DNA of 64,000 nucleotides from the IMG/VR virus record IMGVR_UViG_3300037088_000559, positions 1 to 64,000 of that record; one strand, written 5' to 3'. The DNA is from a virus. Below, one piece after another: positions 16,992 to 37,159 of the stretch; the first letter of the stretch is position 1; every line of letters begins with the position of its first letter. Under the pieces are notes generated by a model that saw only the letters and a list, made by a program, of their open reading frames with translations, did not search any database and was not told where the DNA came from. The position numbers and the translations under genes were made by a program.

Positions 16992-17861
16992 TCACCTCCC
17001 AAGGATAGAATCTAGGACTCGACGACCCTCTTGATACGGGAGCTGGAACCCGGCAGCGTTCTTATGCCCACCTCCGCCGTACGTTTTGGCGATGGCGCTG
17101 ACATCGATCTCGCCGATGGAACGCAGCGAGAATTGGATTTGTGAATCGCCGCGCTCGAACCACCCCACGCCAACGCCGCCCCAAGTCTCGCATAACTTGT
17201 TACAGACGTCGGAGATATTCGGGTACGCCGCGCACACCACTCGCACCGAATATCCCCCAATCTCACCGCGTTGGACTTGGGCCGTGACCTTCTCGATATA
17301 GTGATCGATGTGAAGGCGAATCGCTTTCCCCAACTCGCGGGCGTCGGCGGACATCATATCCCGTAGCCGATCCCACGCTTCGATCGTGTGGGGTAGGGCC
17401 ATCAGATACGCGTTGATCTCGCGGGAATCGGGTAGCGCGAAACACCAAAGATCGCGATCTTGGACATAATCGACGTACCAGGGACGACTCGTCACAGGCC
17501 AATCGGGATCCTCCTGTGGGTGTAACTCATCCCACGTAATCGCCGCGCCCGACCTCTCCATATCGAAGACGATCCGCGTCCCGAGCGCCGGATGCTCCAC
17601 GAAGTTCTTAAGTTCTTCCTGGGCGGTTTTGTGATGGTCAAATACCGTAAGGGAACGCGTAACTTGGCAAAGTGCGAAAGTCGTGGCGCGGGGGTAGGAG
17701 AAGTCAACCATCAGCACGTCTTTGCCCGTAACCCCGCTCACGTTAATCGGGGGCCCGCCGTAAGTCGCGCCGATGAGCCGGGCCTCGGGGTAGCGTTTGG
17801 AAGCGATGTACGCCGAACACCAGCCGTCGGGACAATCTCTATGGTAGATAACTATATCCAT
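16992..17861 (-). CDS. DHH-family phosphoesterase (DHH-DHHA1)
   Basis: 289 residues. Motif I is YHRDCPDG (residues 6-13), motif II DFSYP, motif III FDHHKTA, and the C-terminal DHHA1 domain ends with YGGGGHKNAAGF, so all hallmarks of NrnA/RecJ-like phosphoesterases are present. Such enzymes use manganese to cleave nanoRNA, cyclic dinucleotides or single-stranded DNA ends. Next to helicase and polymerase genes, a role in DNA or nanoRNA turnover is plausible; cleavage of cyclic-dinucleotide defence signals is another possibility. A 42-base stretch of this gene recurs inverted at 23980-24021. Confidence 0.85.
   Translation of the reverse strand: MDIVIYHRDCPDGWCSAYIASKRYPEARLIGATYGGPPINVSGVTGKDVLMVDFSYPRATTFALCQVTRSLTVFDHHKTAQEELKNFVEHPALGTRIVFDMERSGAAITWDELHPQEDPDWPVTSRPWYVDYVQDRDLWCFALPDSREINAYLMALPHTIEAWDRLRDMMSADARELGKAIRLHIDHYIEKVTAQVQRGEIGGYSVRVVCAAYPNISDVCNKLCETWGGVGVGWFERGDSQIQFSLRSIGEIDVSAIAKTYGGGGHKNAAGFQLPYQEGRRVLDSILGR
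17473..17514. repeat. 42-bp exact repeat, copy 1 (within DHH gene)
   Basis: This stretch encodes part of the DHH protein (the EDPDWPVTSRPWYV region). Its exact reverse complement is found at 23980-24021 in the disordered linker of another leftward gene. In the DHH gene the sequence looks native, since the reading frame is ordinary globular protein here, so this is probably the source copy. Confidence 0.9.
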
Positions 17862-19459: not shown

Positions 19460-20263
19460 TCATGGCTTCGGCTCCCTCCACTTCGCCTCTTCCAGCCGCA
19501 CCTTGCGCTCAATCTCCGCGACTATCCTGGCTGCACCCTCATCAAGATTGTTGTTTTTGAAACCAATACCCATCCCCAAATGCCCGACGGCTTTCCCCAG
19601 GGCAATCGCCCAGTCGCCATCACGCTGGATTCGAGTCATCTGGTCGTGCTTCTCCAGGGCGATGGTGGGTCCGAGCAGTCTGATTCGTTCTGCTGATTCT
19701 GCGACAGATTCATCGACGTATTCCCTGACACGCCCGCCTTCTCCTTCAGCAATGTAATCCAGGCAAATCTTTCCGTACCTCTCCCTCTCCGCCGCCGCGA
19801 CGGCCTCAATCTTCTGACACCCAATACATTTCTCATTACCGGCGTACTCAGGAGTGCCATACTGTGAGTCACGAAAATCCCCCCGCGAGTGCCCGCAGGA
19901 CATTAACTCGTGCGCAGCTTCAAAGCCAATATTCTCAATTCGTAAGGCTTCCATATAGATAGGGTCGGGAGGGTCGTTTTGAGCGGCGCAAAAACCCCAC
20001 TCGCCATATGAGCGGAGTTGATTGACTGTCTTGACCTGGACGGCCATCGCGACCTCCTCACGCTCCTGGCAGCGGAGACAAATAATTGGGCAAGCACAAG
20101 GAGCAGAACGCCCCTTGAACGAACAGGTGAGTTCATGTTCTCTCTTGCAGGTCGCCATCGTGTGACCCTCGGCCCCGCAAGGGCTGGGCTTGTCGCACCC
20201 GGCTGCGGCTTCCGCAAGGGCGGCGTCAAAAAACTCCTCAAACGTCTTGTCTTGTTCGCTCAT
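19460..20263 (-). CDS. cysteine-rich hypothetical protein with internal start
   Basis: 267 residues from ATG 20263 (AAAGGAGGACGGC site; ATGA overlap with the methyltransferase gene). The first 70 residues hold a cysteine-rich region (CDKPSPCGAEGH, CPIICLRCQ) suggesting zinc binding; a second CIGCQ lies near residue 160 with CGH before it. An in-frame ATG at 20047 has GAGGAGG six bases upstream, so a 195-residue product may also be made. It is the left-most gene of a block whose base use differs from its neighbours. Confidence 0.6.
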   Translation of the reverse strand: MSEQDKTFEEFFDAALAEAAAGCDKPSPCGAEGHTMATCKREHELTCSFKGRSAPCACPIICLRCQEREEVAMAVQVKTVNQLRSYGEWGFCAAQNDPPDPIYMEALRIENIGFEAAHELMSCGHSRGDFRDSQYGTPEYAGNEKCIGCQKIEAVAAAERERYGKICLDYIAEGEGGRVREYVDESVAESAERIRLLGPTIALEKHDQMTRIQRDGDWAIALGKAVGHLGMGIGFKNNNLDEGAARIVAEIERKVRLEEAKWREPKP

Positions 20264-20862
20264 GCCGTCCTCCTTTCTCTCAGACATTTGCAACCCAATG
20301 TTCCCCATTGTGCAGCCATGGCGTCAGCGATTCCCTGATAGGTCCGGCTCCGATTCTTCCAACGGCCAGGAGAGGGAGGTTCTCTCCACATCCTGCCGTT
20401 CCGGCCTTCCACGATGTTGGTCGGTTCCAGATTGGAAAGGTTTTTGAGCCAGAGACACGTTGCCTTTGTCTCGCCATGTCCGAACATCCACGGTTGGATT
20501 ATCTGGTCGGGTTTGCGCCAACGAGTAGACATGATGCCAATCGGATTTTCAATCGCAATGCGCCCAATCGTCGAGCAGGCAATCTCCAAAAAGAATTTAA
20601 CAGCGGCATCCTGGTATTTGATTCTATCCTCTGACCTTTTGAACCATCTCGCCCCCGACACAGCAAGATAGGTACAAGGAGGAAACGCAATCATCAGGTC
20701 AAATGCCGGTTTGTGTAATACCAGTAAATCGCGGCAGTCGCCTTCAATGTGTGGGCCTTCACGCTCGCTTGGAAGCAAGTCACACGACCAAGCATCATGC
20801 CCGAGCGCCCGGAAAGCCTCACGGACTATTCCTGAGAATTCACACGCGATTAAAACTCTCAC
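20260..20862 (-). CDS. phage DNA cytosine-5 methyltransferase-like protein
   Basis: 200 residues, GTG start after GGGAGGACT. It opens MRVLIACEFSGIVREAFRAL, a SAM-binding motif, then AFPPCTYLAVSG with the catalytic PPC (61-63) and AIENPIG near residue 105, as in C5 methyltransferases. It is much shorter than bacterial Dcm because the target-recognition region is reduced, a type seen in several phages. It would methylate cytosine in phage DNA. Directly upstream is a 35-base repeat that also precedes the gene at 21701. Confidence 0.8.
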   Translation of the reverse strand: MRVLIACEFSGIVREAFRALGHDAWSCDLLPSEREGPHIEGDCRDLLVLHKPAFDLMIAFPPCTYLAVSGARWFKRSEDRIKYQDAAVKFFLEIACSTIGRIAIENPIGIMSTRWRKPDQIIQPWMFGHGETKATCLWLKNLSNLEPTNIVEGRNGRMWREPPSPGRWKNRSRTYQGIADAMAAQWGTLGCKCLRERRTA

Positions 20863-20863
20863 A

Positions 20864-20898
20864 GTCCTCCCTGAATCAACCTGGCCGCGGTGGCCGGA
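20864..20898. repeat. repeat A, copy 1 (35 bp)
   Basis: This 35-base sequence is identical to 21705-21739. In leftward reading it contains a GC-rich part with GGCC...GGCC symmetry, then TTGATTCAGGGAGGAC, which supplies the ribosome binding site of the following gene. It includes the last codons of the 65-residue gene upstream. Confidence 0.9.
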
Positions 20899-21073
20899 CT
20901 TGTTGAAGTTGGTCGATTATCTCCGGCCATCCTTCCCGTACAACCAACCATTTAGCCCCACCAAATATGCTATATCCGCGAATTAAAATTCGGCAATGCT
21001 CGAACATGATAATGTTCTCGATTAGAACGATTACTTTGGCGGCATTTGGTTTGGTAAGAGTTATCGTTTTCAT
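20876..21073 (-). CDS. 65-residue hypothetical protein between repeats B and A
   Basis: ATG 21073 follows AAAGGACAAC. The protein (MKTITLTKPNAAKVIVLIEN onward) is mixed alpha/beta with a C-terminal QVRPPRPG encoded by repeat A. It lies exactly between repeat B copy 1 and repeat A copy 1, like a cassette. No family recognised. Confidence 0.6.
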   Translation of the reverse strand: MKTITLTKPNAAKVIVLIENIIMFEHCRILIRGYSIFGGAKWLVVREGWPEIIDQLQQVRPPRPG

Positions 21074-21083
21074 GTTGTCCTTT

Positions 21084-21125
21084 CACGCCGCACCGCAGCC
21101 AGCCTGGCTCAAGCTCCTTCCGCGT
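21084..21125. repeat. repeat B, copy 1
   Basis: CACGCCGCACCGCAGCCAG is shared exactly with 21794-21812, and the following 22 bases are clearly related in both copies (ctcaag, tcctt and cgcg conserved). In leftward reading it ends shortly before the Shine-Dalgarno of the 65-residue gene. Confidence 0.85.
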
Positions 21126-21165
21126 GCGCTTCTCTACTCCGCAAGCTTTGTGGAATGCTCATGCT

Positions 21166-21384
21166 TCACAAGTTGGCAGCACGCACTTTACAAAATAGAG
21201 GAAGTGCTTTTCTAACGTGCCGCCAATCAATACGCATACAGTGCACACGCGAAAGATGCTGAGCAATTCCCCTAATTGTTGAGAATCTGCGGAGGCAGGA
21301 ATCCGAGTTTGCATATCTGTAAAGCGGGCAAATCCTTGCTTGCACAACTGATTCACTATCTCTCGGTCGCAATAACTTTGACAT
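21166..21384 (-). CDS. small C2H2-like zinc-finger protein
   Basis: 72 residues. I prefer this frame to the overlapping one starting at 21392 because GGGAG lies 8 bases before ATG 21384. The middle reads ARICPLYRY...CLRRFSTIRGIAQHLSRVH, resembling a C2H2 finger with paired histidines, although the first CxxC pair is degraded (C-P-L-Y). If real, it could bind DNA. The competing frame also stays open, so confidence is moderate. Confidence 0.5.
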   Translation of the reverse strand: MSKLLRPRDSESVVQARICPLYRYANSDSCLRRFSTIRGIAQHLSRVHCMRIDWRHVRKALPLFCKVRAANL

Positions 21385-21407
21385 AATCCCATCTCCCTTC
21401 GATTGAA

Positions 21408-21701
21408 TCAGGAAAACTTTGCCGCAATGAGTTCGTCAGCCTGTTTCTTAATGCGAGGGTCATCTATAGGCACTCCTAGTTTTCTCCAACCGTTCTTCTC
21501 GAACTCGACCAACTCTTCGCGGACTTCTTTGGCGTTCAAAGTAAGGAAGAGTTTTAAGAGGTCCACGGCCAGAGACTCGTATAGGGCCTGAAAATACTCC
21601 TGATGGATGGATGGGGGTACAATCTTTCCGGTAGCATCCTGCCATTCTGAGTACGCTCCTTCTCTGTCAACCATTCTTGCTATTTTCTCGACTATATTCA
21701 T
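21408..21701 (-). CDS. hypothetical helical protein
   Basis: 97 residues, ATG 21701 after GGGAGGACGGC supplied by repeat A copy 2. Mostly helical and acidic (MNIVEKIARMVDREGAYSEW, later EVREELVEFEKNGWRKLG). No motif recognised. A 23-codon leader frame ends in the ATGA that contains its start. Confidence 0.65.
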   Translation of the reverse strand: MNIVEKIARMVDREGAYSEWQDATGKIVPPSIHQEYFQALYESLAVDLLKLFLTLNAKEVREELVEFEKNGWRKLGVPIDDPRIKKQADELIAAKFS

Positions 21702-21769
21702 GCCGTCCTCCCTGAATCAACCTGGCCGCGGTGGCCGGATTCCCCACTCGGCTTCCCCCTAATGGACAT
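21698..21769 (-). CDS. 23-residue leader peptide (possible)
   Basis: ATG 21767-21769 has GGAGGTGGGAG immediately upstream; the stop TGA 21698-21700 overlaps the ATG of the 97-residue gene. The peptide (MSIRGKPSGESGHRGQ...) is hydrophilic and is largely encoded by repeat A copy 2. Probably serves translational coupling, or is the remnant of a deleted gene between repeats B and A. Confidence 0.35.
   Translation of the reverse strand: MSIRGKPSGESGHRGQVDSGRTA
21705..21739. repeat. repeat A, copy 2 (35 bp)
   Basis: Identical over 35 bases to 20864-20898. It again lies directly upstream of a leftward gene and includes its Shine-Dalgarno sequence. The distance to repeat B is only about 55 bases here, against about 185 in copy 1. 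Confidence 0.9.
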
Positions 21770-21793
21770 CTCCCACCTCCAACCCGGCGATGC

Positions 21794-21834
21794 CACGCCG
21801 CACCGCAGCCAGATTGACTCAAGATCCTTTCGCG
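21794..21834. repeat. repeat B, copy 2
   Basis: Shares CACGCCGCACCGCAGCCAG with 21084-21102 and a diverged 22-base extension. It lies just after the end of the 89-residue gene, so B marks the junction between genes in both places. Confidence 0.85.
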
Positions 21835-21837
21835 GAC

Positions 21838-22107
21838 TTAGACTTCTCCGCCCTCACCTTCTGCAGCCGGAATAAATAAGTGTGCCATGGCTCGTTCTCC
21901 CGTAGCCACGGCAGCAAGTAACGGTGCATCGTCGTCTCCTTCCACGTGCTGCCAGAACTGGTGGGCTTGGTTGGGGGCCGGGATTGATTCCGGCTTTGGT
22001 TCGACCCACCAACCTAGTGTGCCTGCCAGGGCCTGAGCCTTATGTTCTTTCCGGCACACGATCAGGCGTATCCTTCTACGCCGCACCCAACCTTGCCCAT
22101 ATCTCAA
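21838..22107 (-). CDS. hypothetical protein, TTG start
   Basis: 89 residues. The only available start is TTG 22107, which overlaps the stop of the upstream gene (TTGA). It has a basic start (GWVRRRRIRLIVCRKEH), Trp-rich middle and acidic end. Without a strong Shine-Dalgarno, coupling from the upstream gene would be needed. No family recognised. Confidence 0.45.
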   Translation of the reverse strand: MRYGQGWVRRRRIRLIVCRKEHKAQALAGTLGWWVEPKPESIPAPNQAHQFWQHVEGDDDAPLLAAVATGERAMAHLFIPAAEGEGGEV

Positions 22108-23319: not shown

Positions 23320-24237
23320 TTACGCCTCCCACGCGAACACGTATCCCGACTTCCCGTTGAACGGCTTCAACATCTTCTGCCTGGGGTCGTCGAGGACCGA
23401 CGGAGCGAGTACCCCCTGGACGCGCAAGTTATTCGCGAACGCCGGGTCTTGCGGGTTGCGGTCTTTCCGGCATAAAGCGATCACCCGCACACCGACGAGA
23501 ATCGCGTTGGTGATCTCGAACCACGAGTCAACGCTATCCGGGGCCGCGTCGATACCGAGTTGTTTACGCGTGTGACCCTGCTCCGTACCGATCGCCATCA
23601 ACTTCTGCATCACCGCCGTCTTGTCCCCCGAGGCGACATTGCGGAGGTATTGGTTGAGCTGCATATTCCCCTTGACCGGGGGCGTCGCGTCCCGATCACC
23701 CTCCTCGTTGGGCAGCGTACCCTCGGGGCCCGCCACGACCTCCATGAAGTTGGTCACGAACAGCGGAGGGAGCCAAATCGTGAAGTTGTCCTCGCGGTCG
23801 TTATCCTCGAATCGAAGCTTGAGGATCGCGGCGACGGCGCCGGAATCGAAATCCCTGCGCTCGAAGCCCTCGACTTGGGCGAGGTGGGCGGTGGGGTTGG
23901 GCGGGGGGAGCTTGACGGCGGGGGTGGGGATAAGATCGTCCGATTCGTCAACGGGCACATTCCCGGTGGAATCGGGCTCGGAGGATCCCGATTGGCCTGT
24001 GACGAGTCGTCCCTGGTACGTGGAATCGGGCTGGTCCTGCGGCGTCTCCTCATATACGATCTCGCCCTCGACAGGCTCGGGATCGGGGAGAGGCGGGGCG
24101 GGGGTGGGGGCGACGGGCTTGCGGAATACGGCGGGCGCCAGCGCGGGTTTGACGGGTTTGGTTACGGCGGGCCTGGCAGGGGGCGCAGGGGCCGGTTTGG
24201 TTACGATAGGTGATGCTTTCTTGACCAGCTTGGGCAT
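23320..24237 (-). CDS. conserved-type phage protein with Pro-rich disordered N-terminus
   Basis: 305 residues from ATG 24237 (AAAGGAG site). Residues 1-110 are a Pro/Ala/Lys then acidic disordered tail (PAPAPPARPAVTKPVKPA); residues 120-305 are globular with FTIWLPPLFVTNFMEVVAG and a C-terminal LKPFNGKSGYVFAWEA. Position between a coiled-coil protein and a Sak4-like ATPase suggests the recombination or replication module, and a role in binding single-stranded DNA is conceivable. I do not recognise an OB-fold signature. It contains the in-frame inverted 42-base copy from the DHH gene. Confidence 0.65.
   Translation of the reverse strand: MPKLVKKASPIVTKPAPAPPARPAVTKPVKPALAPAVFRKPVAPTPAPPLPDPEPVEGEIVYEETPQDQPDSTYQGRLVTGQSGSSEPDSTGNVPVDESDDLIPTPAVKLPPPNPTAHLAQVEGFERRDFDSGAVAAILKLRFEDNDREDNFTIWLPPLFVTNFMEVVAGPEGTLPNEEGDRDATPPVKGNMQLNQYLRNVASGDKTAVMQKLMAIGTEQGHTRKQLGIDAAPDSVDSWFEITNAILVGVRVIALCRKDRNPQDPAFANNLRVQGVLAPSVLDDPRQKMLKPFNGKSGYVFAWEA
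23966..24032. repeat. 42-bp inverted copy flanked by 13-bp direct repeats
   Basis: Positions 23980-24021 are the exact reverse complement of 17473-17514. The copy is bracketed by GTGGAATCGGGCT at 23966-23978 and again at 24020-24032, a 13-base direct repeat that resembles a target duplication. The period from one direct repeat to the next is 54 bases (18 codons), so the reading frame is kept; the protein shows PDST on both sides of the inserted TYQGRLVTGQSGSSE. Confidence 0.9.
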
Positions 24238-27398: not shown

Positions 27399-27605
27399 AT
27401 GATCGTCAAGGAGCCGGAGATCAATCCCAAGTTACGCGAGACGCTGCTCGATACCAACGAACTTGCCCTAGAGCTGAACGTCGGTCCGTCTACGGTGCGC
27501 GTGTGGGTCAGCCGTAAGCTCGTCCCGTATGTCCAATGGGGAAAGCGGATATACTTCGTGCGGGAACACCTTCCCTTAATCAAGATGCGTATGTTGATGC
27601 GTTGA
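27399..27605 (+). CDS. excisionase/MerR-type helix-turn-helix DNA-binding protein
   Basis: 68 residues; AAAAAGGAGCCC site before ATG. The core LLDTNELALELNVGPSTVRVW then WGKRIYFVREHL is the winged HTH_17 (excisionase-type) pattern: a helix-turn-helix, then a beta wing with GKR. Such proteins bind DNA as regulators or recombination-directionality factors. No integrase is present, so I favour regulator of the adjacent divergent promoter or binder of the origin region. It precedes the RepA-like gene in the same transcript. Confidence 0.75.
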   Translation: MIVKEPEINPKLRETLLDTNELALELNVGPSTVRVWVSRKLVPYVQWGKRIYFVREHLPLIKMRMLMR

Positions 27606-27633
27606 ACCGAATCACCGATTAAGGAGCCCGTCG

Positions 27634-28782
27634 ATGCCCGATACGCCCGTTAAACCGAAGCTGCCTTCAGATCGTTACGTCAAGTCTCTCAAGCCGTTTA
27701 TCTTCGATCCCACGGCCCCGCGTCTACCCTCGGATTTTATCTATGAATACTTCCTCAAGCCAAGCGCGACCATAGTATGGCTGGGTCGGGAGAAGCACCG
27801 CAAGACAAACCTCGTTCTACAACTTGCGATGTGCGTGGCGCTGGGGCGTGATTTCCTATGGATGAAGTACCGCCGGGAGAAGCCCATTCGCGCCGTGTTC
27901 TTTGATTACGAGTCGAGTACCGAGGGTCTGCAAATGCGCTATGACGCGCTATGTCAAGCAATGAAGTTATCCGATGAGGAACGTATTACTTTAAGGACTA
28001 ACCTTAAGATTATCGCGTTGCACCGGGTAAGCGAAGAAGGCAACGAGATACCCCACTTCCCCGCAAAGGAAAGCGCCGTCGAAATTGAACTTGGCTGGTG
28101 GCGCCAACAGATCGCGGATAACCCGGCCGAGATGTACATTATCGATCCATTGCGGTCCTTCCATATGTCCGACGAGAACGACTCGACGATTAGTAACCTC
28201 CTCACGAAGATCCGCCGGCTGTTCCGTAAGTCGCTCGTGGTTGTTACTCACCATATGCGAAAAGACAACTTCGCGCGGGAGACGGCGGTTACACTCGCCG
28301 ACGACATGCGGGCTTGGTCGGATGGCGCCAGGGGATCGAGCGCGATTAAAGCCGCCGCGGATATCATCGTTTGCCAGGAGCGAGTCAGCGACGACGGGAA
28401 CGAGGTCGTGTGGCTGGGGGCGTATATGAAGGACGGCCCGGAGATTATGCCGACTCCGTTAGAGGAAACCGACGCTGTATCGTTCTACTGGCAAATGGCC
28501 TCGTCAATGCCAGGACACTTACGGTCAACCGTTGAACTCCTCAAGCGCCAAGGAACATTCAAGGCATACAGTGACGCGCGGAAACTTCTCGTGACTCTCG
28601 GAATGAAACGGGCCACGGCGTACCTACACCTGGAGGAGCTAAAGCAGAAAGGCTTCTTCATTCAAGGGGCGTCGGGTGCGTGGGTACTACGCGGGATTGC
28701 GGTTCCAGCGCCTACCGCAGCACAAGCGAGGTCGATCTGCCGGAGTCTCCTCGGTGAGTTCGACGAGCCCGTAGTCCTGTAG
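27634..28782 (+). CDS. RepA-like (AAA_25) replication ATPase
   Basis: 382 residues; AAGGAG before ATG. The RecA/KaiC fold is indicated by TIVWLGREKHRKTNLVLQLA (P-loop position 51-58), FFDYESS (a D-x-E acidic strand), MYIIDPLRSF (Walker B) and VVVTHHMRK (a Walker-B-following motif with His), as in plasmid RepA hexameric helicases of the RSF1010 type. The P-loop has Arg in place of the last Gly. Residues 295-355 look like a winged helix. It probably unwinds DNA at the phage origin, which I place just downstream. Confidence 0.75.
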   Translation: MPDTPVKPKLPSDRYVKSLKPFIFDPTAPRLPSDFIYEYFLKPSATIVWLGREKHRKTNLVLQLAMCVALGRDFLWMKYRREKPIRAVFFDYESSTEGLQMRYDALCQAMKLSDEERITLRTNLKIIALHRVSEEGNEIPHFPAKESAVEIELGWWRQQIADNPAEMYIIDPLRSFHMSDENDSTISNLLTKIRRLFRKSLVVVTHHMRKDNFARETAVTLADDMRAWSDGARGSSAIKAAADIIVCQERVSDDGNEVVWLGAYMKDGPEIMPTPLEETDAVSFYWQMASSMPGHLRSTVELLKRQGTFKAYSDARKLLVTLGMKRATAYLHLEELKQKGFFIQGASGAWVLRGIAVPAPTAAQARSICRSLLGEFDEPVVL

Positions 28783-29113
28783 CTCAAGGTTTTAACTTTC
28801 TCCGACCCGGATATGTTGGACGGTACGTTAGAATCGAGGCTATCTTATGTGGACTCAGTTAGTTAACCCGTCCAACTGTCTAATTGGACGCTGGACAGAC
28901 GGGGTTGGATGGTTCGACAGTGAGACCGTCCAAGTCGTCCAAGTCCGTCTAAGCCTCGTCTACCTTAAAGTCTAAGTAGTAAGTATATATAATAATATAT
29001 ACTTACCTTATCTGTCCAACTAGAACCGGAGTTTTAGGGAAAGTCCCTTACACTCGCCCCCTCGATCACATCATCGCCGCTATTCATGCGCCTTTCGTAC
29101 AGTTTTAGGGGGC
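28783..29113. other. candidate replication origin: iterons and AT-rich palindrome
   Basis: Gene-free stretch. A motif close to CCGTCCAAG recurs: tandem at 28926-28934, 28935-28943 and 28945-28953 (9-10 base period); also 28868-28876 and 29012-29020, and inverted (TTGGACG) at 28816-28822 and 28884-28890, with a weaker copy near 28905. Next to them GTAAGTATATA (28979-28989) and TATATACTTAC (28996-29006) form a perfect 11-base AT palindrome around TAATAA. Iterons, an AT-rich unwinding element and a RepA-like gene side by side are the classical layout of an origin. The rest, 29030-29113, shows only a weak TAGGGA/TCCCTTA hairpin. Confidence 0.65.
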
Positions 29114-29335
29114 TTAATCGTTCGTCTCCCCCGTCAGCATCGACCACCCGCGGCGTAATCTCGAACCATAGCGCCGGGGGGCTGTGTAGGCGGTGACGCT
29201 CATTAGGTCCAATGTATCGCGTTTTAACGAGGAGCGTAAGGCGAGCGGTGTTAGTGGCGGGGCATCGGGTGCTGTGAATCGCGTATCGAGCGTCGCATCC
29301 GTATCGCGATCATCGTCCGGGGTGATTCGATCCAT
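29114..29335 (-). CDS. small hypothetical protein
   Basis: 73 residues after AAAGGAGGGTTAACG. The first half is acidic and Thr/Pro-rich (MDRITPDDDRDTDATLDTRF), the second basic (APRRYGSRLRRGWSMLTGET). No motif recognised. Last gene of the leftward accessory block. Confidence 0.55.
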   Translation of the reverse strand: MDRITPDDDRDTDATLDTRFTAPDAPPLTPLALRSSLKRDTLDLMSVTAYTAPRRYGSRLRRGWSMLTGETND

Positions 29336-30147: not shown

Positions 30148-30370
30148 CGGGTTGTACCTCCGGGGTGTGGTGGGTGCCTTGATGCGCCTCCAGGATTAGG
30201 ATACGCCATTCGAGCCGGTGAGCGCGCTTTGTGAGAGCTTCAACGGCGCGATATTGTAATGTCGTGAGCGTCGTAAGATCGTGCATCGAATCGTTATAGC
30301 GCGTCTCGGTGTAAGCGAGATTCACGCACGCAGTGAAGATTAAAACGGCGCAGGTATAGCGAGTCGTCAT
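29942..30370 (-). CDS. MTTRYT-family protein with N-terminal export or lipobox-like signal
   Basis: 142 residues, start after AAGGAGCCGAATT. The N-terminus MTTRYTCAVLIFTACVNLAY is a signal-like hydrophobic segment with Cys at a near-lipobox (IFTAC), followed by a helical part to about residue 90. The last 70 residues lie over the next gene and are Arg/Ser/His-rich, so the true selected end may be shorter. The start matches the 25-residue peptide at 31003-31080, a duplicated gene. Confidence 0.5.
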   Translation of the reverse strand: MTTRYTCAVLIFTACVNLAYTETRYNDSMHDLTTLTTLQYRAVEALTKRAHRLEWRILILEAHQGTHHTPEVQPDAVITSDPHRLRLAGWHHTDHGMGASPRRPQRRSSGPKRSSYGNRRPHRSSSHGSRRVNRASPRLSGA

Positions 30371-30381
30371 AATTCGGCTCC

Positions 30382-30990
30382 TTAGCTCGGGATCGTAAGC
30401 ATCCGGCGAATAATCGCCGCCATTTCGAGATGGGCTTTAGTATAGGCGGCGTCAGCGTCGGGGGTGGCGTCGGGGGCACGGGCGGCGTAGGCGGCGGCGG
30501 CGGCGGCGCGGGTGAAGGCATAGACGGCGTTGGCGGCGGCGTTGGCGGCGGCGTAGGCGTCGTCGGTGGCGGCGTAGGCGGCGGCGTAGATGGCGGCGTA
30601 AGCGGCGTAGGCGGCGGCGTAGATGGCGGCGTCGATATCGTAGGCGGCGTAGGCGTAGGCGTAGGCGGCGCGGGCGGCGCCTCGAACCTCTTGTAACGTT
30701 GCTTCCCCCCGTGCCCACTTCCGTGCCATTTCCAACGCTTTTGCCGGACGCTTTTCTTCCGGGGGTACATATTGCAACGCGGTTTCGGCGCACGCGCACG
30801 CCGCAAGCACCAGTTGTCGGCGAGTCGGCCACCCCTTTACACCGATCTGTCTCGCGCACAGCCAAAGCAGCCCGTCGGCGCGGGGACACGTCTCCCAGGC
30901 TTCGGTTAGGGTCTGGCTCGCGACAAAGCCCCGCGCTTCTGAACAAGCGCTGAATTCGCGGAGTAATCGTACTAATGCTCGATTCGTCAT
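30382..30990 (-). CDS. Ala/Tyr-repeat protein, copy B of duplicated unit
   Basis: 202 residues, AGGAGG before ATG 30990. Residues 1-105 are a globular domain with many Cys and Trp (LVLAACACAETALQYVPPEE, then ALEMARKWARGEATLQEVRG). Residues 106-185 are a repeat of AAYAA-type pentads (AYAAYAAIYAAAYAA), and a cap HLEMAAIIRRMLTIPS closes the protein. The globular part and cap are nearly the same as in the gene at 31093-31740, while repeat number and content differ. Function unknown; a long Ala-rich helix is expected. Confidence 0.75.
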   Translation of the reverse strand: MTNRALVRLLREFSACSEARGFVASQTLTEAWETCPRADGLLWLCARQIGVKGWPTRRQLVLAACACAETALQYVPPEEKRPAKALEMARKWARGEATLQEVRGAARAAYAYAYAAYDIDAAIYAAAYAAYAAIYAAAYAATDDAYAAANAAANAVYAFTRAAAAAAYAARAPDATPDADAAYTKAHLEMAAIIRRMLTIPS

Positions 30991-31002
30991 GGTGAAATCC
31001 TC

Positions 31003-31080
31003 CTAATGGCGCGCCTCGGTGTAGGCGAGGTTTAGTACTGTGGCGAGGGTAAGGGTAACATAGGTGTAGCGAGCGGACAT
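31003..31080 (-). CDS. 25-residue hydrophobic peptide, truncated paralogue of MTTRYT protein
   Basis: ATG 31078-31080 with AAGGAGCTTCACGT, TAG 31003-31005. Sequence MSARYTYVTLTLATVLNLAY then TEARH; compare MTTRYTCAVLIFTACVNLAY then TETRY in the gene at 30370. The shared frame, start and ribosome site show duplication of the two-gene unit. It stops right after the hydrophobic segment. Confidence 0.6.
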   Translation of the reverse strand: MSARYTYVTLTLATVLNLAYTEARH

Positions 31081-31092
31081 ACGTGAAGCTCC

Positions 31093-31740
31093 TTAGCTCG
31101 GGATCGTAAGCATCCGGCGAATAATCGCCGCCATTTCGAGATGGGCGGCGGCGGCGGCGTAGGCGGTGTGGGCGGCGGCGGCGGCGTAGGCGGTGTGGGC
31201 GGCGGCGTCGGCGATGGCGTCGGTGTAGGCGACGGCGGTGTGGGCGGCGTCGGTGTGGGCGGCGGCGGCGTAGGCGGCGGCGTCGGCGATGGCGTCGGTG
31301 TAGGCGACGGCGTAGGCGGCGGCGGTGGTGCAGGCGGCGGCGGCGGCGGCGTAGGCGGCGTTGGCGGCGTTGGTGGCGTTGGTGGCGGTGTGGGCGGCGT
31401 AGGCGTAGGCGTAGGCGGCGCGGGCGGCGCCTCGAACCTCTTGTAACGTTGCTTCCCCCCGTGCCCACTTCCGTGCCATTTCCAACGCTTTTGCCGGACG
31501 CTTTTCTTCCGGGGGAATGTACTGCAACGTGGTTTCGGCGCACGCGCACGCCGCAAGCACCACCTGCTGATGCGTCGGCCACCCTTTTACGCCCAGCTGT
31601 TTCGTGCATAGCCATAACATCCAGTCGGCGCGGGGACACGTCTCCCAGGCTTCGGTTAGGGTCTGGCTCGCGACAAAGGCGCACGCTTCTGAGCAGGCGC
31701 CGAGTTTACGGAGCAATCGTAACAATGTTGGATTCGTCAT
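31093..31740 (-). CDS. Ala/Tyr-repeat protein, copy A of duplicated unit
   Basis: 215 residues from ATG 31740 (AGGAGGATTTCACC; the open frame runs further upstream but without a site). The first 105 residues closely match the paralogue at 30382-30990, then a longer repeat region with AAYAAAAAHTA, AYTDAIADAAA units and the same HLEMAAIIRRMLTIPS cap. The DNA of the repeat is a GGCGGCGTAGGCGGC-type satellite, prone to slippage, so copy number probably varies between relatives. Confidence 0.75.
   Translation of the reverse strand: MTNPTLLRLLRKLGACSEACAFVASQTLTEAWETCPRADWMLWLCTKQLGVKGWPTHQQVVLAACACAETTLQYIPPEEKRPAKALEMARKWARGEATLQEVRGAARAAYAYAYAAHTATNATNAANAAYAAAAAACTTAAAYAVAYTDAIADAAAYAAAAHTDAAHTAVAYTDAIADAAAHTAYAAAAAHTAYAAAAAHLEMAAIIRRMLTIPS
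31141..31415. repeat. GGCGGCGTAGGC-type coding satellite (also 30449-30680 and 32214-32492)
   Basis: Three arrays of short imperfect repeats built from GGCGGCGTAGGCGGC-like units, in three different leftward genes. They encode Ala runs broken by Tyr, Thr, Asn, His or Asp. Array lengths are all multiples of three with no stop, showing selection for the frame. The opposite strand is therefore also open and gives long false Gly-rich or Arg-rich frames. Confidence 0.9.
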
Positions 31741-31774
31741 GGTGAAATCCTCCTGTTTGATGTGTCGTACTGGG

Positions 31775-32146: not shown

Positions 32147-32920
32147 TTAGACCTCCGTAGCTAAGACCTCTTGTAAAAGGTGAGTTAAATCGTAAGAAAA
32201 TTTCTCAAGGACGTTGGCGGCGGCGGCGGCGGCGTAGGCGGCGGTGTAGGCGGCGTCGGCTTTGGCGGCGGCGGCGGCGTAGGCGGCGGTGTAGGCGGCG
32301 TCGGCTTTGGCGGCGGCGGCGGCGGCGGCGTAGGCGGCGGCGTAGGCGGCGTCGGCTTTGGCGGCGGCGGCGGCGTAGGCGGCGTTGGCGGCGTTGGCGT
32401 TGGCGGCGTTGGCGGCGGCGGTGTAGGCGGCGGTGTAGGCGGCGGCGTTGGCGTTGGCGGCGTTGGCGTTGGCGGCGTAGGCGGCGTCGTAAGTTCGATC
32501 TTTCCCGCTTTTCCAATCTTCGGCCCATTTCGTAAACACCTCTTTTCCTGGCCAGTCTCCGGTTAGTTCTAAAGCGATCCGCAAAGCAGCGAGGATTCGT
32601 TGATGTTTAGTGAATTGCGGGAGCGCGAACCGTTCGCGCAAGGTAAGGGTCTTAACACCAATTTTAGTGCCGCTGTTGGCCACGACTTCCGGGGTTTCGG
32701 CGGCGTAGAGGTGTGGGTGATCGAATGCGGCGTGTATAGGATTCATAAACGCCGTAATTTCGGGCGAGAGATAGGCGTGGATAATTTCGGAGGTGCATAG
32801 CGCCGTCCCGTCACCCGCAACGGTTACGGTTTCGCCAATACGCCAGTGCGTCTCGCCATCTTGACCTCGGCGGGTGTAGCCGTCGGAATCGGTGAGTTTA
32901 TACACGGTGATCATCGTCAT
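32147..32920 (-). CDS. DUF7666-like domain protein with Ala/Tyr repeats
   Basis: 257 residues, GGAG before ATG. Residues 1-95 match the phage DUF7666 type (MITVYKLTDSDGYTRRGQDG, WRIGETVTVAGDG, LCTSEIIHAYLSPEITAFMN): a short domain of unknown function, usually at protein N-termini. Residues 105-140 are helical with ALELTGDWPGKEVFTKWAED, then about 95 residues of AAYAANANAANA- and AAKADAAYTAAY-type repeats, then the cap VLEKFSYDLTHLLQEVLATE. A third, unrelated N-domain on the same repeat type. Confidence 0.75.
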   Translation of the reverse strand: MTMITVYKLTDSDGYTRRGQDGETHWRIGETVTVAGDGTALCTSEIIHAYLSPEITAFMNPIHAAFDHPHLYAAETPEVVANSGTKIGVKTLTLRERFALPQFTKHQRILAALRIALELTGDWPGKEVFTKWAEDWKSGKDRTYDAAYAANANAANANAAAYTAAYTAAANAANANAANAAYAAAAAKADAAYAAAYAAAAAAAKADAAYTAAYAAAAAKADAAYTAAYAAAAAANVLEKFSYDLTHLLQEVLATEV

Positions 32921-34515: not shown

Positions 34516-34578
34516 CTTCATTCCCTCCTGCCCTATTTCACGACCCTGGGGGATTTGACTCCGTACGTTAGAGGATAG

Positions 34579-34804
34579 AGCACGTTGCTCGCCATTGGGC
34601 GGCAGTAAATAACTACCGACCGGACGGTGGGTAAACGTCGTAATTTCTAAGGTGTGTCTATTAAACCACAAAGTGTGGTAAATTAACCACAGTCGAGTTT
34701 TAACTCGTTTGTTATCATATACTTACAGAGACCGAAGTCGGCGCGTGAGTAGGTTAACGTTAGGTGATATTAGCTAACGTATAGCTTAACTAGATAACGT
34801 TAAC
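34579..34804. promoter_or_regulatory. gene-free region rich in dyads, probable operator/promoter region
   Basis: Contains TGTGGT-AAATTA-ACCACA (34674-34691), CGAGTT-TT-AACTCG (34694-34707), and GTTAACGTTA (34753-34762) with its exact inverse TAACGTTAAC (34795-34804). At 34579-34595 AGCACGTTGCTCGCCAT is repeated exactly at 36240-36256. The region is more AT-rich than its surroundings. I could not find a convincing -35/-10 pair, so phage or host regulators binding the dyads are likely but unproven. Confidence 0.5.
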
Positions 34805-36215: not shown

Positions 36216-36518
36216 TTCGCTCACCTCACCTTACTCCGTAGCACGTTGCTCGCCATCACGTAACGTACCACGGCCGCGTTATATCCCGCGCCCGTGATAC
36301 TGGTACGTGACGCTTGGGACCCGGGACCCATAGTCGTGAGCATCGTAACTCTGCCGGCCAGCGCGCCCACGGGTAGGCGTGCACCCCCACCCTATCACCG
36401 GCGGTACCCCCCATAGGGGCGCGCGGGCCGTCGCCCGCAAAATTTCCAGGATATACGGCCTGAAAACTATTATCTATTCTATCAACGTTTCTACTCTACG
36501 TAATATGCGATTAAAATG
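36216..36518. other. gene-free divergent intergenic region
   Basis: About 300 bases between leftward accessory genes and rightward late genes. It holds AGCACGTTGCTCGCCAT (36240-36256, repeated at 34579-34595), a short dyad ACGTACCA...TGGTACGT, a tandem GGGACCC pair and a GCGGGC-CGTC-GCCCGC hairpin followed by AAAATTT. The right part (36450-36515) is AT-rich, as an UP element might be, directly upstream of the late promoter. I see no open frame in it. Confidence 0.5.
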
Positions 36519-36547
36519 TTGATTTCGCCTGGCACCTATGCTACGAT
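36519..36547 (+). promoter_or_regulatory. late promoter P1
   Basis: TTGATT (36519-36524), 17-base spacer ending TGC, TACGAT (36542-36547); TGC before the box makes it an extended -10. The sequence onward (CGGGCACTAAAAGGAG) recurs almost unchanged at the second late promoter. Drives the Mom-like gene and probably the whole late region. Confidence 0.7.
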
Positions 36548-36571: not shown

Positions 36572-37159
36572 ATGGAACCGGCGTTTTCCTGTTGGCGTGT
36601 TCAACTCGCGAGCCGTTCCGCTATTGATCCATTCATTAAGAAGCACTATCTGCGCCGCTGGCCCGGAGTTGTAACACTGAACCTCGGTTTATTCGACGGG
36701 CAGAGGAATATCGGTTGTGCCGTGTTCGCTTTGCCTCCACGCGAGACGATGAAGCGTTACGGTGTCCCGCTCGTTTGGGAACTCGCGCGGTTGTACATCG
36801 AAGACACGACACCGGCCAATGCTGAGACTTGGTTCGTGGCGCGGGCGATTCGCTGGATTCAACGGGACTATCCAGACGTTACATGTCTGGTCTCATACGC
36901 CGATCCTTCGGCCGGGCATCGCGGGACGATCTATCAAGCCGGAAGTTGGATTGCCGACGGGCGTACTGACCAGGAACGGAAGACCCCGCGCTTCGATTAT
37001 CGTAACCCCATAACCAAGAAGATGTACTCCCGGCGTTCGCACGTTCCTGATGATGTCGTTCCCGAGCGCGTCCCGCGTATCTCAAAACTCCGGTATGTTT
37101 ATTGGTTGGATGGCTCGCACGAGAAACGTAGACAAGTCCAACGATTAAGTTTACGTTGA
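36572..37159 (+). CDS. Mom-like adenine-modification protein
   Basis: 195 residues, AAAAGGAGCCGTAC before ATG. The motifs KKHYLRRWPG, VWELARLYIEDTTPANAETW, and VSYADPSAGHRGTIYQAGSW (Tyr109 region) match the Mom family of phage Mu-type proteins, GNAT-related enzymes that convert adenine in DNA to a methylcarbamoyl-type modified base and so block restriction. Length is close to the family norm. It is placed between the late promoter and the terminase genes, so modification would occur just before packaging. Confidence 0.78.
   Translation: MEPAFSCWRVQLASRSAIDPFIKKHYLRRWPGVVTLNLGLFDGQRNIGCAVFALPPRETMKRYGVPLVWELARLYIEDTTPANAETWFVARAIRWIQRDYPDVTCLVSYADPSAGHRGTIYQAGSWIADGRTDQERKTPRFDYRNPITKKMYSRRSHVPDDVVPERVPRISKLRYVYWLDGSHEKRRQVQRLSLR

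Follow-up and report, generated by a model that had tools for sequence, protein, structure and literature searches.

A convergent, non-coding gap at positions 28783-29113 is probably the origin at which replication of this phage initiates, and would supply the cis-acting portion of a replicator cassette extending over 27399-29113. The window analysed covered 64,000 of the 65,369 bases of the virus record, the ends of which carry a 132-bp repeat (99% identity). Hence, the genome unit measures ~65,237 bp and is effectively complete; its G+C content is ~58%. An origin is the best reading of the gap because a singular repeat array lies against the most AT-rich spot of the genome, in a convergent position behind a replicative helicase gene. 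The cassette would unite a small HTH protein, a helicase, binding sites, and a melting site, and comprises the following features together with the downstream gene that bounds it.

27399-27605, plus strand: gene for a 68-aa HTH_17 protein, candidate repeat-binding initiator (Pfam HTH_17, 1.8e-6; PHROG excisionase/regulator, 1.8e-4; excisionase-type, 9.8e-3)
27634-28782, plus strand: gene for a 382-aa AAA_25 ATPase, by homology an RSF1010-RepA-type hexameric helicase (Pfam AAA_25, 3.4e-19; profile to 1g8y, 1.8e-12; Foldseek)
28783-29113: non-coding gap of 331 bp, candidate origin region (gene calls and coding scores)
28816-28821, minus strand: outlying inverted GTCCAA
28870-28883, plus strand: two direct copies, GTCCAA at 28870 and GTCTAA at 28878
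28884-28889, minus strand: inverted GTCCAA, which with the copy at 28878 makes a GTCTAA/TTGGAC inverted pair
28928-28975, plus strand: five direct copies read from the sequence, GTCCAA at 28928, GTCCAA at 28937, GTCTAA at 28947, GTCTAC at 28958 (one mismatch), and GTCTAA at 28970
28979-29006: perfect AT-rich hairpin with 12-bp arms and an AATA loop, candidate DNA unwinding element (longest hairpin, AT extreme, fold score)
28989-29018, minus strand: promoter-like TGGACA-18-TATTAT overlapping one repeat and the palindrome, which would fire leftward through the repeats (consensus match 10/12, weak evidence)
29014-29019, plus strand: GTCCAA to the right of the palindrome
29114-29335, minus strand: 73-aa gene, the right-hand boundary of the gap, whose orientation renders the gap convergent (coding score +7.8, strong Shine-Dalgarno)

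The gap is flanked by two 3' ends, that of the plus-strand helicase gene and that of the minus-strand 73-aa gene. Both genes scored positive for coding and had good Shine-Dalgarno sequences, while the small ORFs examined within the gap scored negative, in agreement with the initial annotation, which had described 28783-29020 as gene-free. An ORF running over the repeats (28847-28975) was ruled out as a gene by its coding score. Given the convergent arrangement, there is no gene start to regulate in the gap, which counts for an origin. No DnaA box was found across 26-31 kb, a point against the origin reading. Further long AT-rich non-coding stretches occur at 34604-34803 and 36440-36540, with TTAACG / CTAACG-like motifs repeated at 34.6-34.8 kb; these stretches are candidates for promoter regions or a second origin.

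Tandem copies of a 9-mer had been reported at 28926-28953, and these are present as CCGTCCAAG, TCGTCCAAG, and (T)CCGTCTAAG. With one mismatch allowed, the exact 9-mer CCGTCCAAG showed no genome-wide excess (19 occurrences vs 17.5 expected), and the six exact GTCCAA copies taken alone as a cluster were borderline only. The significance lies in the clustering of the degenerate core GTCYAA, which starts at 28870, 28878, 28928, 28937, 28947, 28970, and 29014 on the plus strand and at 28816 and 28884 on the minus strand. The gap thus holds 9 of the 49 GTCYAA sites of the genome, where 0.25 would be expected per 331 bp, and any other 331-bp window of the genome contains at most two. To correct for the choice of motif, we took every 6-mer containing a single two-fold position and scored the densest window of each, both in the phage genome and in 200 genomes simulated with a second-order Markov model; the GGC-rich repeat genes between 30 and 33 kb, being low-complexity coding repeats, were left out of the real-genome ranking. 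The corrected cluster score was 11.1 in the gap against a simulated maximum of 8.41, so that none of the 200 simulated genomes equalled the GTCYAA cluster even with the motif freely chosen. The feature is therefore real and non-random.

Successive members of the five-copy direct array are stepped by 9, 10, 11, and 12 bp (mean 10.5 bp). The steps sum to 42 bp, equal to four helical turns of 10.5 bp, and hence put all five copies on approximately the same side of the double helix, in a phased array that adjoins the palindrome. The repeats had been described as lying in both orientations around the palindrome. Both strands are indeed represented, but the two minus-strand copies are on the left, and the single copy on the right (29014) is in plus orientation.

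The palindrome reads GTAAGTATATAT-AATA-ATATATACTTAC and occupies the position first reported for it; its arms are 12 bp long around an AATA loop, which is equivalent to the 11 bp + TAATAA + 11 bp given initially. No perfect hairpin elsewhere in the 65-kb genome is as long, the runners-up having 9-bp arms, although arms of 12 bp were reached in 2 of 20 simulated genomes and length alone is only mildly unusual. The most AT-rich 30 bp and 60 bp of the genome coincide with it, and its DNA fold gave z = -2.8. Clustered repeats beyond chance in non-coding DNA, abutting an AT-rich element that is a candidate for unwinding, are two of the features that characterise an iteron origin, and the gap is a candidate for a site that works like one. 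Such an origin would further have a cognate initiator that binds the repeats, for which the HTH_17 protein is a candidate, and replication starting at the site.

The initial annotation had placed a RepA-like ATPase gene beside the gap. An ATPase gene is there, but Pfam, profile, and structure comparisons assign its product to the helicase type of RSF1010 RepA and not to the initiators. A profile of the 382-aa protein with two distant viral relatives matched RSF1010 RepA (1g8y) at 1.8e-12, and Foldseek found its predicted core to resemble DnaB, KaiC, and RSF1010 RepA; as a single sequence, the protein reached no solved structure. The relationship is distant, at <30% identity to RSF1010 RepA. 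RSF1010 RepA is a helicase, whereas the RepA of other plasmids is an iteron-binding initiator, and hence the name "RepA-like" invites the wrong mechanism. Judged by homology, the protein is kin of the former. Among the proteins scanned, no Rep_3 initiator was found and no primase was recognised. The likeness to an iteron plasmid origin that was first proposed accordingly holds in part: an origin is still the best reading, but the neighbouring protein is of the helicase type, no Rep_3 initiator was found, and sites of 6-9 bp are unlike iterons of 20-22 bp.

A better candidate for the initiator, by analogy, is the 68-aa HTH_17 protein, whose gene is adjacent to and co-oriented with the helicase gene across a 28-bp gap. 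Its matches to excisionase-type regulators were weak, and it had no sequence match to any solved structure. AlphaFold gave a poor model of this protein and, for the helicase, a confident core with a poor C-terminal region; no claim made here rests on these poorly modelled parts. BldC, likewise a protein of 68 residues, and Apl/Xis occupy direct repeats spaced by about one helical turn, binding cooperatively and head to tail (PMC5859096, PMC7498355), so the HTH_17 protein would fit the phased array. Both the spacing of the direct repeats and the size of the HTH protein resemble the Apl/Xis/BldC operator arrays. Unlike the gap, those arrays serve recombination or transcription; here there is neither an integrase nor a gene start downstream, and the HTH protein is a candidate binder only.

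Comparison with other known systems yielded partial likenesses. Like an IncQ / RSF1010-type oriV, the locus combines a RepA-type ring helicase, the latter by homology (profile to 1g8y and Foldseek), with repeats, an AT-rich segment, and an inverted repeat (PMC7557826). In the small IncQ-related Serratia plasmid pSMBC31-5K, which encodes a related helicase, a convergent gap immediately after the rep genes, on their 3' side, contains four iterons of 20-21 bp. These iterons (2905-2991) are unannotated in the plasmid, and the gene before them (end 2910), in the place expected for repC, is annotated as "ABC transporter ATPase". IncQ origins differ in having ~3-4 iterons of 20-21 bp in one orientation, where this phage has 6-9 bp sites in both orientations, and no tandem iterons of 20-22 bp are present. 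They also employ a RepC initiator and a RepB primase; the phage had no match to RepB primase (PF16793) in a search whose controls were only weakly positive, and none to RepC (PF06504) in a search without any positive control signal. By iteron length and RepB, the gap is not an IncQ origin. Typical plasmid iterons in general measure 20-22 bp, in contrast to the helically phased 6-9 bp sites in two orientations described here. Origins of the phage lambda type likewise have repeats and an AT-rich melting element near replication genes. Unlike in lambda, no O-like initiator was recognised, and the array lies outside a gene, after the helicase gene. The origin of the PLE satellite, a phage-related element, also has iterons in a non-coding region and relies on the phage polymerase, but uses a RepA_N initiator (PMC7145576), none of which was detected in the protein scans of this phage.

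Searches for relatives returned little beyond the virus itself. Those with the AAA protein, the PD-(D/E)XK nuclease, and the terminase each found contig 3300037225_000247 alone, which is the same virus in another assembly and has zero differences over the whole candidate region. Exact searching of IMG/VR for the palindrome arms found them in no other contig except the same virus. A search with the DNA polymerase found nothing, the DHH phosphoesterase led to 15 phages (in none of which a copy of this helicase could be detected), alignment-based searches reached distant RepA helicases only, and the helicase and HTH protein had no relative in the genome contigs searched. The gene order ATPase(-), PD-(D/E)XK nuclease(-), helicase(+), convergent gene(-) is common to the distant phages ctVRi840 and IMG/VR contig G017, although neither shares the GTCYAA motif. 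In ctVRi840, the helicase gene is flanked on its 5' side by both the top repeat cluster of the genome (10.9, vs at most 8.9 in simulation), which has a different motif, and the longest palindrome. The CGGAAA repeats of this phage, together with palindromes, are grouped in two places (28428-28568 and 34551-34681), one beside repA and a similar one ahead of the terminase gene. G017 showed neither a comparable cluster nor a comparable palindrome. These data suggest only weakly that repeat arrays recur beside this helicase gene. Conservation of the GTCYAA motif itself, which the initial annotation had named as a check, is not supported, the sole motif-bearing relative being the same virus.

GC skew, the other check proposed, neither backs nor opposes the origin reading. 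Raw cumulative skew had its minimum at 22.5 kb and its maximum at 60 kb, and these were dropped as origin pointers. A gene-strand-corrected fit placed the best origin at 26.5 kb (t = 2.8, ~90th percentile of permutations), with P 0.06 at 28.9 kb, and this signal vanished once the 30-33 kb GGC-repeat genes were removed. That region includes two minus-strand genes (30352-31004 and 31062-31754) that are tandem copies ~80% identical, with one GGC-rich repeat array each (30481-30679 and 31142-31429), and a further gene (32147-32920) that contains a GGC-rich tandem repeat array at 32212-32491. Contig 3300037225_000247 departs from this genome mainly in the last of these, and almost only there; the repeats differ in content and in copy number, suggesting that the gene encodes a repeat protein whose length varies within a live population.

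The phage encodes a replication set of its own, comprising polymerase A, a Dda-like helicase, a DHH phosphoesterase, and a weak Sak4-like match. A 45-bp sequence within the DHH phosphoesterase gene (17470-17514) recurs inverted, at 98% identity, within the gene for a 305-aa protein (23980-24024). Between these, a ~2 kb region (20048-22103) in which the codon-usage gene caller found almost nothing contains a strong DNA methyltransferase match (20260-20862; PHROG 757, 8.8e-67) and is accompanied by direct repeats of 35 bp (20864/21705) and 41 bp (21084/21794); it looks recently acquired. Several DNA methyltransferases (11756, 14562, and 20260), together with a Mom-like DNA modification protein (36572-37159; PHROG 1384, 1.2e-33), suggest that the phage DNA is modified.

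The main rival to an origin, which we consider unlikely, is a regulatory array, with a phage DNA-binding protein covering the repeats and controlling promoters inside the palindrome, for example for an RNA antisense to the helicase gene or for a small RNA. The model would be phage 186, where Apl reportedly covers sites located between early promoters. The promoter-like sequence overlapping a repeat and the palindrome is in keeping with this, as is the occurrence of transcription regulators in the HTH family; moreover, similar repeats in ctVRi840 also precede a terminase gene, hence such arrays need not be origins. Yet the gap adjoins the 3' ends of both neighbouring genes, the cluster occurs only once in the genome and is absent from divergent promoter regions, and the gap region had no RNA family match.

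Plasmid centromeres also have short repeats about one helical turn apart, a spacing that the array shares. However, the protein scans revealed no partition ATPase, and the ATPase encoded next to the gap belongs to the helicase type, so that a partition or incompatibility site of a plasmid-like prophage, with centromere-like iterons, is quite improbable. Still less probable is a bidirectional transcription terminator between the convergent genes with the repeats incidental. Its position would suit, and RNA from either strand of the palindrome folds into a hairpin (-13 to -14.5 kcal/mol, z about -3), but the AT stem has no U-run on either side, was not called as a terminator, and leaves the GTCYAA cluster unexplained. 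Least probable of all is a site-specific recombination site, in which 11 + 6 + 11 bp would be the core, the repeats arm-type sites, and the nearby HTH gene excisionase-like. Tyrosine-recombinase cores do have such dimensions and the HTH protein has an excisionase-type match, but no tyrosine or serine recombinase was found in the whole record, with positive controls, and integrase PF00589 had no match while its controls were detected in 14 of 14 cases. This reading is strongly disfavoured, as it would need a host-encoded recombinase, and attP was rejected.

If the gap is the origin, the HTH_17 protein would bind GTCYAA cooperatively, the five phased copies giving a short filament beside the palindrome. 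Bending or torsion may then open the AT-rich palindrome, onto which the RSF1010-RepA-type ring helicase of the neighbouring gene would be loaded, and the phage's own family-A polymerase would extend. We put forward only tentatively, and with considerable doubt, that a BldC/Xis-like 68-aa winged-helix protein takes the place of a dedicated Rep or O initiator, polymerising on helically phased repeats and melting the palindrome for the helicase encoded by the next gene.

To our knowledge, origins of uncultivated phages have rarely been mapped. Iteron-type origins are already known, and what would be unusual here is the candidate initiator type. Positions 27399-29113 offer a compact replicator candidate in a virus lineage without a close sequenced relative, and a specific hypothesis, namely that a small excisionase-type protein may act as the initiator for an RSF1010-RepA-type helicase.
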